DNA of 64,000 bases from Pseudidiomarina marina (lineage in GTDB: Bacteria > Pseudomonadota > Gammaproteobacteria > Enterobacterales > Alteromonadaceae). The translations under genes and the position numbers were made by a program. Positions 21,176 through 55,144 of the stretch are shown here, in pieces; position 1 is the first letter of the stretch; each line of letters begins with the position of its first letter. The DNA lies in contig NZ_PIPZ01000002.1 of NCBI RefSeq assembly GCF_003987045.1, positions 124,001 to 188,000 of the forward strand. The letters are read 5' to 3'. A model generated the notes under the pieces. The model worked only from the letters and a program-made list of their open reading frames with translations. It was not told the DNA's origin and did not search any database.

Positions 21176-21463
21176 TCAAAGTCTCGTTGGCAGCATACGT
21201 TGATGCAGTATTGCGTGAATGACTAAGGTGTTTTGTTCAACCATGTAAAAGATTATATGACTCTCAAACGGATAACTCTGATATTTAGAATCTAAATTTG
21301 TATTCAGTTTCCCTAGTTGAGGAAATTCACATAAAAGCTTTATTGTCGATTCAATTTGGTCAATGTAACTATTCGTTTTTAATGCTCCCCATTGACCAAC
21401 TGTATACTCCCGAATTTCGACAAGATCAGCTAGTGCTAACGACGTAAATTTATAATGAAGCAT
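21176..21463 (-). CDS. Type II toxin, ParE/RelE superfamily
   Basis: This 95-residue protein opens YKFTSLALADLVEIREYTVGQWG, typical of ParE toxins, with a central LCEFPQLGKLN and C-terminal strands ending HAILHQRM. It most likely inhibits DNA gyrase or translation when free of antitoxin. Its ATG overlaps the antitoxin TGA by one base (TGATG), which couples their translation. ampD begins 8 bp after its stop. The region is A+T-richer than its neighbours, which suggests acquisition by transfer. Confidence 0.88.
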   Translation of the reverse strand: MLHYKFTSLALADLVEIREYTVGQWGALKTNSYIDQIESTIKLLCEFPQLGKLNTNLDSKYQSYPFESHIIFYMVEQNTLVIHAILHQRMLPTRL

Positions 21464-21723
21464 CAGTCATATTTACCAGCAAGTATATCTGAAAATACAG
21501 TTTCTCCATCGTGAAGTAGACCCGCTCGCGCTTGCTCTTCAGATGCCTTTAGTCTTGCCTTCAATGCTTCGAGCTTCATTTGCTCAATTAATTCATATTC
21601 TTCAACTGACATCATCACAGCAACAGGCTTACCGTTCTTATTTATTCGTACGGGAGTACTCTGCACACTCATAATGAGTTCGCCGAAATGTGTTTTTGCT
21701 TCATTGGCGGTGATCGTCTTCAT
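21463..21723 (-). CDS. Type II antitoxin, Phd/YefM family
   Basis: This 86-residue protein starts at the ATG at 21723 (MKTITANEAKTHFGELI), which has a GGAG ribosome site 6 bp upstream; the longer frame to 21771 would cross the operator-like palindrome. The Phd/YefM core continues through STPVRINKNGKPVAVMMSVEEYE, and the C-terminal half is charged and probably disordered until bound by the toxin. It should act as toxin inhibitor and operon repressor. It is not closely similar to the antitoxin at 4816, so the two modules are not recent duplicates. Confidence 0.88.
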   Translation of the reverse strand: MKTITANEAKTHFGELIMSVQSTPVRINKNGKPVAVMMSVEEYELIEQMKLEALKARLKASEEQARAGLLHDGETVFSDILAGKYD

Positions 21724-21733
21724 GTTAACTCCG

Positions 21734-21753
21734 ATTAAATCGAACGATTTAAT
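21734..21753. promoter_or_regulatory. Candidate operator of the second TA operon
   Basis: A perfect palindrome, ATTAAATCG, AA, CGATTTAAT, lies 10 bp before the antitoxin start. Phd/YefM antitoxins usually bind such palindromes at their own promoters. Confidence 0.6.
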
Positions 21754-21790
21754 TAAATTAGTCCATTTCATTAAGCTCTTCCACTTTAAA

Positions 21791-21883: not shown

Positions 21884-22513
21884 ATGTCTGCTCAATTTGC
21901 TGTGTTAATGGGAGATATTGTTGAGTCGCCCAATCAAAGTGCTGACAGTCGCCGGCATCTCGGTGCGCACATTGAGCTGGGGCTACGGCTGATTCATGAC
22001 TATATCCCACTTTCTTATGAAGTATTTCGTGGGAGTCGGTTCGTGATAGAAACTGAACACGCTGATCAATCTGTGACTATTGCGTTATTGCTGCGCTTAT
22101 TTCTTAAATCCAAGCAGCAACAAGAAGATTGGGATGTACGCATTGGCGTGGGTGTGGTCACGCAAGTATCAAATAACCATTCGACAGTTAAACGCCTTGC
22201 CGAACAGCTTTCTGAGAGAGCGCTGAATGCAATTAAAAAAGAACGCTTAGGTATTCAGACCGATAGTGAGCAGATAAATGAGAGGTTAAGGCTCACAACA
22301 AAGTTCGCCGATGCCTTATTGTCACAGTTAACAACGAAGCAAGCCCAAGTACTCAGTTACTACCTGCGATTTATGCCAATGACGCATCAAGCACTGGCGA
22401 ATAAACTGAAAAAATCGCGTGTGAATGTCACGCAAATACTCAACGCCACACATTACAAACTGTTTGAATTGTATTTGTTAGAAACCCGAGAAATTTTACG
22501 CAACGCCGATTAA
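21884..22513 (+). CDS. SatD-like protein with a C-terminal helix-turn-helix
   Basis: This 209-residue cytosolic protein begins QFAVLMGDIVESPNQSADSRR, like the GDIVxSR opening of SatD-family proteins. The next part (about 25-105) has an alternating alpha/beta pattern with FRGSRFVIETE where SatD relatives often have a GDxFQ-like motif. The C-terminal 60 residues look like a sigma-region-4-type helix-turn-helix (TTKQAQVLSYYLRF ... THQALANKLKKSRVNVTQIL). It may be a DNA-binding sensor, but the function is unknown. It has a ribosome site (AAGGA) and its own gap upstream with three TTTGATTRC repeats. It is inserted with the TA pair between ampD and nadC. Family call moderate. Confidence 0.55.
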   Translation: MSAQFAVLMGDIVESPNQSADSRRHLGAHIELGLRLIHDYIPLSYEVFRGSRFVIETEHADQSVTIALLLRLFLKSKQQQEDWDVRIGVGVVTQVSNNHSTVKRLAEQLSERALNAIKKERLGIQTDSEQINERLRLTTKFADALLSQLTTKQAQVLSYYLRFMPMTHQALANKLKKSRVNVTQILNATHYKLFELYLLETREILRNAD

Positions 22514-22567: not shown

Positions 22568-23464
<897 letters not shown>

Positions 23465-23467
23465 CTA

Positions 23468-23495
23468 TTGACGAATTTTATTCATCTGCTATGTT
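23468..23495 (+). promoter_or_regulatory. pilA: Predicted pilA promoter with extended -10
   Basis: TTGACG (23468-23473), a 16-bp spacer and TATGTT (23490-23495) preceded by TGC give a strong extended -10 sigma-70 promoter. Transcription would start near 23502, about 45 bp before the riboswitch. I see no sigma-54 type -24/-12 site, which pilA often has in other gammaproteobacteria. Confidence 0.6.
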
Positions 23496-23546
23496 TTAGG
23501 AGCAATGCGCAACTAAGTACCAGAAATGGGCTTGGGGGCCAGGCAT

Positions 23547-23650
23547 GCTTTAAAAGGCAAAGCCACTGAGAGGTGGTGACGCAAAACCTCCGGTCCAACT
23601 GGATTTAACCCTTCTGGGTTTCAGCGGATAGCGGGGCTGCAGGCTAAAGT
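23547..23650 (+). ncRNA. c-di-GMP-I (GEMM-I) riboswitch candidate in the pilA leader
   Basis: The 368-bp gap between nadC and pilA carries the GEMM hallmarks in order: AGGCAAAGCC, then a hairpin with stem CCACT/GGTGG and GAGA tetraloop (23562-23575), then TGACGCAAAACCTCCGG (about 23577-23593), a second arm with AACCC-TTCT-GGGTT, and CGGATAGCGGGGCTGC (about 23625-23640). The order, the GNRA loop, GACGCAAA and AGCGGGG match the aptamer that binds cyclic di-GMP. The outer P1 pairing is less certain (GCTTTA with TAAAGT). About 180 bp of leader follow before the pilA start, including a hairpin at 23748-23775 followed by TTTT that might be an expression platform. Family from pattern memory; not searched. 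Confidence 0.85.
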
Positions 23651-23747
23651 CTGGTGGATGAAGTAGCTTTCCGATGTATGTCGACAAAGCAAATACCACT
23701 TGTTCTTTCGGCTGATGCAGAAGACTTGTAGTGGTCCGTAAAGCGGC

Positions 23748-23784
23748 CATCCAAGTGCTGAAGTGCATCTGGATGCTACTTTTA
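23748..23784 (+). terminator. Possible expression-platform hairpin of the riboswitch
   Basis: CATCCA and TGGATG pair around a partly paired inner segment (TGC/GCA), followed by CTACTTTT. As a terminator it is weak, with a short T tract; it may instead shape access to the leader further downstream. Confidence 0.3.
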
Positions 23785-23832
23785 GACAACTACAATAACT
23801 AATAAGTTGAAATTACTTTCGGGAGATATTTC

Positions 23833-24351
23833 ATGAAAGCGCAAGTTCAAAAAGGTTTTACCTTAATCGAATTGATGATCGTTGTTGCGATTATCGGTAT
23901 TTTGGCGGCTGTAGCAATTCCTATGTACAGCGACTACACCCAGCGTGCAAAAGCTTCTACTGGCTTAGCTGCGTTGGCTAACTACAAAACTACTGTTGCA
24001 ATGTGCTATCAGACTTATGGCGCGTTGACTAACTGTAATGCGACGACCGGACCTGTAGTCGACGACCCTGCGACTCCAGAAGATGAAACAGCAGCAGGCA
24101 ACCCGACCCCTATTCCACCAGCAATTACGTCAGCGGATAACGTAAACGGGGTAACAGTTGCAGATGTTCAAGGTGGTTTGATCACAGCAACCTTGGAGGC
24201 TGTCGATGTTGATGGTCAACCAATCCAAGTAACAATCAAACCTGAAGCATCAACAGGCGGTGGTGTGCTCAATTGGACGATCGGATGTTCAGACTATACG
24301 AAAGGTTCTCGTGTTGATGGATGTTCTTCTGAGCCACAGGCTGCAGGTTAA
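23833..24351 (+). CDS. pilA: Type IV pilus major pilin
   Basis: This 172-residue prepilin has a short leader, MKAQVQKG, cleaved before Phe9 by PilD. Mature Glu5 lies in [18 protein letters not shown], the hydrophobic assembly helix. The C-terminal region holds a Cys pair typical of pilin disulfide loops ([13 protein letters not shown] near residues 156-168) and another pair in the alpha/beta loop ([11 protein letters not shown]). A GGGAG ribosome site is 7 bp before the ATG. pilBCD follow on the same strand after a terminator, and a c-di-GMP riboswitch candidate precedes the gene, so pilin supply may respond to the biofilm/motility signal. Variable middle residues are usual in this family. 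Confidence 0.95.
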
Positions 24352-24385
24352 TTGATTTATAACTATAATTAGATAATTATTATTA

Positions 24386-24420
24386 AAGCCTCAACCAGTA
24401 GTTTGGGTTGAGGCTTCTTC
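24386..24420 (+). terminator. Terminator after pilA
   Basis: AAGCCTCAACC and GGTTGAGGCTT form an 11-bp stem with a 9-nt loop, followed by CTTC. It would separate the highly expressed pilin from pilB, though read-through seems likely. Confidence 0.75.
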
Positions 24421-24442
24421 ATCTAGATGTTTAAGGTAAATC

Positions 24443-26140
24443 ATGCTGCATCACTCCCTCGCGGCGCTGTTGCTGCGTGACAAACTTATTCCTGAAGAAA
24501 AACTCACGAAATGCAGTGAGTATGCTTGGGAAAATAAACTTCCATTTAGCGCCTGCTTAATTGATCAGAAGCTTATTTCGCCAAGCGAGCTTGCCAACTT
24601 TTGTTACCTCGAATCAAATGCCCCTTGGCTTGACCTCGACGCTTTTAATCCTGATTACATCCCGCAAGAATTTATCAATGAACGCTTAATTCGTAAAAAC
24701 CATGCGATACCGCTGTATATGCGTGGCAGCGTGCTGTACGTGGCAGTTTCTGATCCCACACGGATTGAGACACTCGATGAATTTCAATTCCGTACGCGGA
24801 TGCAAACTGAAGCGGTATTAGTCGAAGAGAACAAGCTTCAAAAACTAATTGATACGGTTCTTGAGAATGACTCGTCTGCATTAGGTGTTACTGCGGAAGA
24901 CGAGCAAGAGCTTCGCGAAATTGATGCTGAAGGCGAACGTCAGGACGATAGCGGCGCGGTATCGGCCGATGTAAAAAACGATGCGCCGATTGTTATCTAC
25001 ATCAACAAGATGCTGCTCGATGCCATTAAACGTGGCGCCTCGGATTTGCACTTTGAGCCATACGAACAAGAGTATCGTGTCCGTTTTCGTATCGATGGTG
25101 TGTTACATGAAGTGGCTAAACCGCCAGTTCAACTCGCAGGCCGTATTGCTGCTCGCTTGAAAGTTATGTCACAGCTCGATATTGCCGAGCGCCGATTACC
25201 GCAAGATGGTCGTATTAAGCTCAAATTATCGAAACATAAAGCGATTGATTTCCGGGTCAGTACTTTGCCCACTTTGTATGGCGAAAAAATCGTTTTGCGG
25301 ATACTCGATGCTGCCGCAGCAATGATTGGTATCGAATCATTAGGTTATGAACCCGACCAGCAGAAACTCTACGAAGAAGCGTTAGAAAAGCCGCAAGGTA
25401 TGATTTTGGTGACGGGTCCGACAGGTTCGGGTAAAACCGTCTCGCTCTATACCGGTTTGAATATTCTGAACACCCCAGAGCGCAACATTTCGACGGCAGA
25501 AGACCCTGTTGAAATTAACTTAATGGGAATTAACCAAGTTCAGATTAATGTTAAAGCCGGTTTGACCTTCGCTGATGCACTGCGCTCTTTCTTACGTCAG
25601 GATCCCGACGTGGTGATGGTGGGTGAGATCCGTGACTTAGAAACCGCAGAAATTGCGATTAAAGCGGCACAAACCGGTCACTTAGTTCTCTCCACCTTGC
25701 ACACCAACTCGGCGGCTGAAACCCTGACACGTTTGATGAACATGGGCGTGCCGTCGTACAACATTGCGGGTTCGGTCACCCTGATTATTGCGCAGCGTCT
25801 TGCTCGTCGCTTGTGTAACACCTGCAAAGATGAAGAAAAGTTGCCGAAAGAAGAAATGTTGCGCCAAGGCTTTTCTGAAGAACAGGTAAAGACTGCGAAA
25901 ATATTCAAGGCGGTTGGTTGCGATCAATGCACCGGCGGGTATAAAGGTCGTACAGGTGTATACGAAGTTATGCCCATTACAGACAACATTGCAGACCTTA
26001 TAATGCAAGGGTCATCGTCACTAGAAATTGCAAAGCAGGCACGTCGAGACGGCATTAACTCATTACGCCAGTCGGCATTGTTGAAAGTATTAAAAGGTAC
26101 CATTAGCCTGGCAGAAGCCAACCGTGTCACCAACTTCTAA
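24443..26140 (+). CDS. pilB: Type IV pilus extension ATPase
   Basis: This 565-residue hexameric ATPase powers pilus assembly. The N-terminal MshEN/GSPII-like domain (about 1-140) is followed by the motor domain with Walker A GPTGSGKT near residue 329, an Asp box (EDPVEI), Walker B-like [16 protein letters not shown] and the His box [10 protein letters not shown] tetra-Cys zinc site is present (CNTCK ... CDQC near residues 455-495). The ribosome site AAGGT is 7 bp upstream. pilC follows after 31 bp. N-terminal MshEN-type domains in PilB/MshE relatives can bind c-di-GMP; whether this one does is open, but it would fit the leader RNA upstream. Confidence 0.96.
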
Positions 26141-52538: not shown

Positions 52539-54786
52539 ATGAAGCAGATAGATGTCGTGAGTTTTCCAGATAAGTTCGGTAAGCAGTCCGAACGCTGGCG
52601 CTTATTGCGCTACCTTGTTGTTGTGCTCTTTATTGCATCGGCTTTATTGTACGCGGTGTATCTTGTCGTCGATGGTGAACGTCAACAACAACTGGAAATA
52701 GAAAAACGCCGAGCCAGCGAGCACTTAAGTGCAATGCGAGGCCAAATTGAACAGCGCTTACAAGCCAATATGTTAGCACTGCGCGCGTTGCGTCCTGAAA
52801 TTCTTTGGCAAGACACACCCGATCGCGTTCGCTTACAACACATCATTGATGAATTTCTCTCCTCTAATCTCGATATCATGCATGTTGCCCTCGCGCCCGA
52901 TTTGGTCGTTAAATTCGTCTACCCAGTCGAAGGTAATCAGTCATTAATAGGTTTTAATTACCGACTGGATACCGAGCAGTATGCGGGCATCTTGCGCGCA
53001 ATTGCGATAAAAGACGTGGTGTTGACCGGTCCGTTGCGTCTTAATCAAGGCCGTGATGCTCTGATTGCACGGATGCCGGTATTCCGTAATGACCGTACGT
53101 TGTGGGGTGTCGCTTCGCTGGTTATTGACCATGTGAATCTCTTAGAGGGTGTCCGATTTTATCAGCATCCGAATTATTCTTTTGCTATTCGTCATGTGCA
53201 AAATGATCTGAACCCGACCCCCACCGCATTTGCTGGTAATAACGATGTATTTAACCCTGATGCATTGGTCACTGAAATTGCTTTTCCTCGCGGTCGCTGG
53301 CAGTTAGCAGCTTATCCTCGCGACGGGCAGTGGGTCGCAAATAATGCCGATTTTTGGCTGCACTGGGCGATTGGTATCGGTCTTACGGCTGTTATTTTAT
53401 CGGCCTTTTTAATGCTAATTTTTACTCAGCATCGATTACGCGGCGCTATTTCGACTATCGCGTATCAAGCCCGCTACGATGGTTTAACGGATTTACCGAA
53501 CCGCAACTTCTTCTCGGAACAACTTGGCGCAGATATTCGTTCGGCCTTACGCTCGCAACAAAAATTCGCACTGCTGGTTCTCGATCTTGATCATCTTCGC
53601 GAAATTAACGACGTATTAGGCCATGAAGTGGGTGATGCTTTATTGCAACGTGTTGCCGAGCGCATTCGAACCAGTATTCGCGAAGATGATTTATTAGCGC
53701 GCATTGGTGGTGACGAGTTTGCGATAGTATTGCGAGATCTTAATGATCCGAGTGAAGCTGAAATTCGCGCTAAAGCGATTATGAGCGACTTACTTCATAC
53801 GCTGGACATTGAACATAACCATATCAATATGACCGCCAGTACGGGCATCGCCATGTTCCCGCACGATGGCCAAGAAGTTCAACAGCTATTAAAGCACGCG
53901 GAACTAGCGATGTATGCTGCGAAAGCGCAAGGCGCAATGAGTGTTCACTTCTTCGATGAACAGCTACGCCAAAGCACGGAGCGCGACATTAATCTGCACC
54001 ATCAAATTATTAAAGGAATTGAAGCGGAACAGTTTGAGGTGCACTACCAGCCGGTTATTGAAACGGAAACAGGCTTACTGACACGTTGTGAGGCTTTAAT
54101 TCGCTGGATACATCCAGAACGAGGCGCAATTTCACCCGCAGAATTCATTCCAATTGCCGAGAAGACCGGCGCGATCATTGGTTTGGGCGACTTCGTGCTG
54201 CGCCAGGTCGTTCGTGATTGGAAAAAGATGCATAGCGCCGGTCTTGATTTAGCAATTGCGCTGAATCGCTCGCCGCGTGAATTCAATGACCGTCAGGCGG
54301 CAACTCATTGGTTAAATGTGATTGCAGCAGCCGATGTACCGACCAATCGATTGATGTTCGAAATTACTGAGTCGATGCTTATGCGCAATAAAGAACGCCA
54401 GTTTGCTAACTTGCGTAAACTGCGAGACGCTGGTATTTCGTTAGCCATTGACGATTTTGGGACTGGGTACTCAAGCTTGAACTACCTGCGTTCGTACCCT
54501 ATTGACGTGATAAAGATCGACCGCAGTTTCTTACATAACGTACCACATCAGGGGCAACAAAAAGCCTTGGTTGAAGTGCTTATTCGTATCGCACACACGC
54601 TGAACATGAGTGTGGTTGCCGAGGGCGTTGAGCATGAGCAACAAGTCGAATTTTTGCAGCAGCAAAAATGTCATTACCAGCAAGGCTTTTTCTACGGCCG
54701 TGCCATGCCTCTAAAGGAATTCATTCGCTTTACGCAGCAATTTAATCGTGATGTGTTAGAGCGAACCAACTCAGAGAAAGAAGTGT

Positions 54787-54803
<17 letters not shown>
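52539..54803 (+). CDS. Membrane GGDEF/EAL bifunctional c-di-GMP protein
   Basis: This 754-residue protein has a membrane helix at about 23-43, a periplasmic sensor region (about 45-270; no family assigned), a second helix near 275-297, a GGDEF domain (intact RIGGDEFAIVL near residue 390) and an EAL domain (EALIRW near 517, EITESML, DDFGTGYSS, IKIDRSF, EGVEHEQQ, QGFFYGRAMP). Both catalytic motifs are intact, so it may make, break, or do both to c-di-GMP depending on the sensed signal. It is divergent from mraZ. A TATAAT at 52508 has no clear -35 and the start lacks a strong ribosome site. Its last codons and stop lie inside rnpB on the other strand. Confidence 0.93.

Positions 54804-55144
<341 letters not shown>

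Follow-up and report, generated by a model that had tools for sequence, protein, structure and literature searches.

The window analyzed here, 64,000 nucleotides of the Pseudidiomarina marina genome, carries a type IV pilus locus with the gene order nadC-(aptamer)-pilA-pilB-pilC-pilD. The upstream gene is nadC (TIGR00078, above cut-off); the gene after pilA encodes PilB (TIGR02538, above the equivalog cut-off) and is followed, by Pfam, by genes for a PilC-like T2SSF protein and then a PilD-like Peptidase_A24 protein. From this pil operon context we infer that the product of pilA is the major pilin. The pilA start codon lies at 23833, 188 nt 3' of the aptamer match; the preliminary description had put this gap at about 180 bp and had suspected an unusual expression platform within it, and we find there a conserved, structured module, E2. 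The features of the leader are the following.

23468-23495, plus strand: promoter-like site TTGACG-16-TATGTT, extended -10 (TG ahead of the second hexamer)
23502-23510, plus strand: GCARTGCGC, conserved 5' end of the predicted transcript
23538-23544, plus strand: GCCAGGC, outer P1 (5' strand), complementary to 23649-23655 in each of 20 leaders
23546-23644, plus strand: c-di-GMP-I aptamer (RF01051), 57.9 bits
23547-23550, plus strand: GCUU, 5' strand of inner P1, pairs with ARGY at 23641-23644 in 20 of 20 leaders
23563-23576, plus strand: P2 hairpin CCACU-GAGA-GGUGG with GNRA-type loop GAGA, part of the RF01051 aptamer
23578-23585, plus strand: GACGCAAA block after P2
23587-23593, plus strand: CCTCCGG block
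23630-23636, plus strand: AGCGGGG block, closing
23637-23720, plus strand: E2, conserved hairpin CUGCAGGCUAAAG...CUUUCGGCURRUGCAG, directly 3' of the aptamer
23640, plus strand: C expected to pair with the ligand (U in leader L032)
23641-23655, plus strand: 3' strand of P1, which is also the left strand of E2
23668-23674, plus strand: inner arm of E2 (P6), UUUCCGA, Shine-Dalgarno mask in the window's clade in the model only
23704-23720, plus strand: E2 right strand, its complementarity to the Shine-Dalgarno context strong in some relatives and not significant in this leader
23726-23795, plus strand: third hairpin E3, outer helix UUGUAGU/ACUACAA (UUGUUGU/ACAACAA type in relatives)
23821-23825, plus strand: Shine-Dalgarno sequence GGGAG
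23833-24351, plus strand: pilA, type IV pilin, above the Pfam cut-offs for N_methyl and Pilin

Three further features of the window were recorded. A toxin-antitoxin pair of the ParE / Phd-YefM type (21176-21771, minus strand) lies just upstream of the nadC-pilA region; a 209-aa protein (21884-22513, plus strand) has a weak match to a sigma-70 region 4 domain (25.4 bits, cut-off 24.1); and the bacterial RNase P class A RNA is encoded at 54785-55142 (minus strand, 328.6 bits).

The promoter had been described as sigma-70 with an extended -10. The TG-preceded site is present, and TG[CT]TATGTT precedes the aptamer in all 20 pilA leaders examined; promoter-like sites as such are, however, about as numerous in shuffled versions of the region (3 observed against 2.0 +/- 1.8 expected). 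Spacing from the extended -10 would place the transcription start at about 23502. In some folds the 5' end GCARUGCGC pairs with GCGCA at the coding start; we set this pairing aside, as L032, L038 and L043 have two differing codons that disrupt it. Near the other end of the leader, an outer helix like that of E3 occurs in 13 of the 20 leaders folded.

The covariance search that the preliminary description had proposed gave a significant result. Infernal cmscan with Rfam 15 matched RF01051 (c-di-GMP-I, GEMM-I) over the full model (1-87 of 87), with a score well above the gathering score of 35 bits and an E value, computed for the 64 kb window, of 9.9e-09; across the whole genome (2.41 Mb, 10 contigs) the pilA-leader aptamer is the single RF01051 match (E 8.7e-11). 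The GEMM-I blocks that had been picked out by eye (CCACT-GAGA-GGTGG, GACGCAAA, CCTCCGG and AGCGGGG) are all present and in the right order. A permissive Rfam scan of 23440-23860 scored the element at 50.9 bits against c-di-GMP-I-GGC (RF03167), below that family's cut-off of 59, returned no c-di-GMP-II riboswitch among its matches up to E 10, and otherwise gave two chance-level matches to unrelated families.

We take the C at 23640 to correspond to C92 of Vc2, in which the ligand-contact residues are G20, A47 and C92. The ligand-site motifs AAAAGGCAAA and GACGCAAA are kept in 21 of 21 leaders and the 3' C in 20 of 21, and in the window's leader, judged by sequence, all three are those of the c-di-GMP form. 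An A in place of G20 marks cGAMP selectivity (GEMM-Ib); position 20 is G, not A, in all 21 leaders. In GEMM-I the ligand pairs with the C directly before the 3' strand of P1 (PMC9262584). Assignment of the aptamer to the c-di-GMP-I class is near certain. It is a further member of an already known class, and its family membership predicts that it binds c-di-GMP.

Against this one RF01051 match the genome holds 28 GGDEF-domain matches. One GGDEF domain is located inside the window (53469-53936, plus strand; G000:C3:177469-177936). PilB (24443-26140, plus strand) has an MshEN domain (61.3 bits), the first motifs of which look degenerate by eye. The MshEN fold binds c-di-GMP in some ATPases, and a second c-di-GMP input at the protein level, via PilB, is possible.

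We surveyed 97 genomes, including our own, for RF01051 and found matches in 58 of them, at 94 places in all. Of the 91 places that were read (the other three are in G054, G073 and G086), 21 have a type IV pilin gene directly downstream, and all 21 belong to the window's genus. The aptamer thus precedes pilA in 21 of 26 Pseudidiomarina genomes, our own included, a set that contains one genome labelled Idiomarina loihiensis and two metagenome-assembled genomes. The remaining five (G010, G016, G022, G025 and G023) have no RF01051 match. The pilA leader of G023 was not obtained from its contig; the other four leaders, read directly, contain neither the aptamer nor E2, indicating that the two were lost together. 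The leader of G025 retains the promoter, the 5' end GCATTGCGC and GCCAGGC, and everything from the aptamer to E3 is missing from it. L032, with changes at the ligand C and at the first G of GCCAGGC, comes from a genome that is 77% complete.

The survey also turned up GEMM-I aptamers before other genes. A second aptamer precedes a small secreted protein in two genomes of the genus, G006 (L025, 1501-1593) and G003 (L030), and a further one in G001 (L028, 1501-1584) precedes a secreted protein. The small secreted protein of L025 matches the Spore Coat Protein U domain, a frequent component of chaperone-usher pili; a further type of pilin may therefore answer to the same messenger. In two genomes of another family of the order (L050 and L051; G063 and G087), a GEMM-I aptamer with a long P3 lies before a protein starting MDWRNKMFLVIQNS.

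Directly after the aptamer, 20 leaders share the same module: CUGCA-RGYU-ARRG-UCUG-GUGR, a variable inner arm, a CCAC-type segment, and GUCUUUCGGCU-RR-UGCAG. RNAalifold predicts 20 pairs for this module, E2, with 98.6% of cells paired over 18 distinct rows and double changes at three pairs (CG to UA in L035, GC to AU in L042, UA to AU in one row), each resting on one sequence. On both the pairing and the double-change measure, 0 of 500 shuffles scored as high, and sliding the strands against each other left at most 45% paired. L047, near-identical to L039, was left out of the alignments (A1-A3). A covariance model of E2 has matches in 20 of the 26 genus genomes, a count that includes the sequences used to build it. 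With stricter filters and 12 candidates scored per genome, it matched 16 of 345 genomes sampled across the family, and every one of these belongs to the genus. E2 had no Rfam match up to E 10, which argues against a known family, and no match in a phage collection, which argues against a phage origin; CsrA-type GGA motifs, considered by eye, are not kept in all leaders.

The left strand of E2 has a second possible partner. Within an otherwise variable 5' stretch GCCAGGC is nearly invariant, and it is complementary to GUCUGGU downstream; GCUU, which directly precedes UUAAAAGGC or UAAAAGGC, is complementary to ARGY, the tetranucleotide immediately 3' of the ligand C. Over 20 leaders, 139 of 140 pairs can form in this outer P1 and 80 of 80 in inner P1, and sliding the partner lowers pairing from 98.6% to 19-55%. 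Because the strand AGGCUAAAGUCUGGU has two partners, the 5' strand of P1 and the right side of E2, P1 and E2 are mutually exclusive. Covariation was absent from P1 (402 to 500 of 500 shuffles as high, in an alignment with row L034 misaligned by one column at inner P1), and the P1 duplex energy beats shuffles of the 5' segment weakly, with 68 of 300 as good for our own leader and a range of 9 to 127 of 300. In five leaders of the window's clade (L001, L040, L041, L046 and L048), another 5' segment pairs better with the 3' strand of P1. Upstream of P1, ACCAGAAATGGGCTT at 23518-23532 looks like a duplicate of the P1 5' strand; in the window's clade it pairs better than that strand does with the left strand of E2.

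One genome, G021, departs from this arrangement. Its leader (L026) has the same aptamer, the same AGGC after the C and the 5' partner GCUU, followed by a different 3' sequence, and because its platform is different it stands outside the E2 and P1 counts. The best local fold of that 3' sequence is a hairpin starting on the 3' strand of P1 (-15.0 kcal/mol), the right strand of which has no significant complementarity to the ribosome site of this leader (83 of 300 shuffles did as well). As an outlier G021 is informative: its modelled fold suggests that the design is kept with other letters.

An earlier version of P1 (GCC-AG-GCA with UGC-A-GGC) gave no consistent change at the Shine-Dalgarno sequence in constrained folding, and we abandoned it since it ties up the C with which the ligand is expected to pair. 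The choice of P1 was therefore revised after a first folding result, a freedom that is partly controlled by the shuffle test described below. When the final P1 or E2 is forced, the two ensembles lie 1.6 kcal/mol apart on average in favor of E2, with ligand energy not counted. Under these conditions the mean openness of GGGAG over 20 leaders is 0.23 in P1 and 0.45 in E2, and the Shine-Dalgarno sequence is less open in P1 in 16 of the 20; masking is absent from L029, L033 and L036 and practically so from L035 and L044. We then shuffled the last 45 nt in 16 of the 20 leaders, with L040, L046, L047 and L048 left out as near-duplicates. The mean P1/E2 difference in openness is 0.143, against 0.018 +/- 0.040 in 40 shuffled sets (largest 0.120). 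Singly, six of the 16 leaders have at most 3 of 40 shuffles as high, and the other ten have 5 to 33; because the leaders are related to each other, such counts overstate independence. Across the 60 nt before the start and a few codons after it, the largest positive change falls on the Shine-Dalgarno sequence itself, and several other positions shift equally far in the opposite direction.

The modelled mask differs among leaders. Six leaders of the window's clade use UUUCCGA of the inner arm, four others use the right strand of E2, and in five more the mask is partial. The right strand of E2 was rejected as a universal mask: it ranks first among the windows of 7 of the 21 leaders, our own not among them, and its pairing with the Shine-Dalgarno sequence of our own leader is not significant and no better than that of 30 of 273 windows, although it is strong in some relatives. 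The conserved UUUC before the Shine-Dalgarno sequence is kept also in riboswitch-less G025 and is able to base-pair with the beginning of the coding sequence. Folded freely, our own leader gives a probability of 0.00 for the outer helix of E2 and an openness of 0.03 for the Shine-Dalgarno sequence, and its ensemble lies 4 to 5 kcal/mol lower than each of the two forced states. Because the free fold favors neither the outer helix of E2 nor an open site, a real switch would need to act during transcription.

In the mechanism that we propose, the aptamer, by its family, would bind c-di-GMP, and the ligand would favor P1, with GCCAGGC and GCUU holding the downstream AGGC and GUCUGGU to which they are complementary in 20 of 20 leaders. 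Since the same downstream strand forms the left side of E2, P1 would exclude E2. Formation of P1 would then release pyrimidine-rich arms of E2, which would mask the Shine-Dalgarno sequence and lower pilin translation at high c-di-GMP, whereas formation of E2 would leave it more open; both halves of this last step come from the folding model and are the weakest part of the scheme. The effect on the Shine-Dalgarno sequence is modest and is absent in some leaders, and no intrinsic terminator was found on the plus strand, so we rate the strand exchange between P1 and E2 as likely, and translational repression by c-di-GMP as our leading guess for the output, offered tentatively on the modelling. 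That a c-di-GMP-I riboswitch controls pilA in this way, taken as a whole, has in our judgment about an even chance of being correct.

The exchange could instead act on transcription, one of the two folds exposing a site of Rho-dependent termination, pausing or mRNA decay. The leader is long and has unstructured A/C-rich stretches (ACAACAAUAAUAAU) ahead of the ribosome site, and transcription is the level at which the known GEMM-I switches of Clostridioides and Geobacter work (PMC9262584); we nonetheless consider this unlikely, since no intrinsic terminator-like site was found on the plus strand of 23300-24460 and runs of at least four T between the aptamer and the start vary in position over 20 leaders and are missing in two. 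Quite improbable in our view is an output of the opposite sign, in which another fold would mask the start region without ligand and P1 would open it. Forced P1 is the less open state in 16 of 20 leaders, which speaks against it, even though free folds of several leaders already pair the Shine-Dalgarno sequence (0.03-0.05 open in L001, L041, L046 and L048). In C. difficile, pilA1 is raised by c-di-GMP via a class II switch (PMC6200980, PMC6366702), and the two Vibrio cholerae class I switches respond oppositely (PMC6366702), so the direction cannot be read from the aptamer.

E2 might also be a second sensor or a protein site, making the leader an integrator of two signals. Both of its strands are nearly invariant, as are loop and bulge positions (UCUG, the RR bulge, GURGC), and 20 of the 26 genus genomes keep it as a single domain. 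The double pairing with P1 already accounts for the invariance of the left strand, however, and an element without Rfam relatives whose matches among 345 family genomes all lie in one genus is unlike a widespread ligand class; we hold this reading to be very unlikely. The same low standing goes to a two-input RNA device, in which the aptamer and E2 would compete for one strand while E2 senses a metabolite, a protein or the state of the pilus; pilin supply would then follow both c-di-GMP and a second signal. That the aptamer is a relic devoid of regulatory effect, as its loss from the pilA leaders of G010, G016, G022 and G025 might suggest, is highly improbable given that the core residues at the ligand site are kept almost throughout and that aptamer and E2 are retained together.

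The preliminary description had further suggested that the riboswitch may replace control of the PilSR type. The genome contains nine matches to the sigma-54 activator family, five of them strong: NtrC, above cut-off; three that by eye are NorR-, TyrR- and PspF-like; and a response regulator whose best model, AtoC, scores far below cut-off and which adjoins a sensor kinase that, on visual inspection, does not resemble PilS. With the models applied, no clear PilR was seen among these matches, a weak result that leaves room for such a replacement.

If the strand-exchange scheme is true, a second messenger directly controls pilin supply at the RNA level in a Gram-negative bacterium. A comparison set of 21 natural leaders and four leaders without the aptamer is at hand, and the three-strand design of P1 against E2 is compact enough to be tested by single-strand swaps.

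We found no published account of this pilA leader, or of any Pseudidiomarina riboswitch, in a search of titles and the starts of abstracts that left most subscription journals uncovered. Among related systems, one parallel is Cdi-2-4 of Clostridioides difficile, a c-di-GMP-II riboswitch of pilA1 that turns transcription on by read-through (PMC6200980, PMC6366702). It shares with the Pseudidiomarina leader the placement of a c-di-GMP sensor ahead of a type IV pilin gene (PMC6200980, PMC6366702), whereas here the aptamer is of class I and no intrinsic terminator was found. The pilM riboswitch of Geobacter metallireducens is a GEMM-I switch with cGAMP as ligand and a transcription terminator (PMC9262584); there, too, a GEMM-I fold lies before type IV pilus genes and the aptamer excludes an alternative fold (PMC9262584), but its gene is pilM, whereas ours is pilA. 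Bc1 of Bacillus thuringiensis is of class I and has a long expression platform, with a reported effect on transcription and translation (PMC11218506). The likeness lies in this combination of class I aptamer and long platform (PMC11218506); Bc1 has two intrinsic terminators and another gene, and its platform, going by its description, is unrelated (PMC11218506). With the RF01051 switches Vc2 and Cd1, the pilA leader shares the aptamer core, the GNRA loop on P2 and a ligand-pairing C followed directly by the 3' strand of P1. It differs from them in that P1 is long and split, and in that the 3' strand of P1 doubles as the left strand of a hairpin conserved, among the genomes searched, only in this genus. 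The P1/E2 platform is a genus-specific variant and, if our reading is true, would add a case in which the closing helix of the aptamer has been rebuilt for a long, non-terminator platform.
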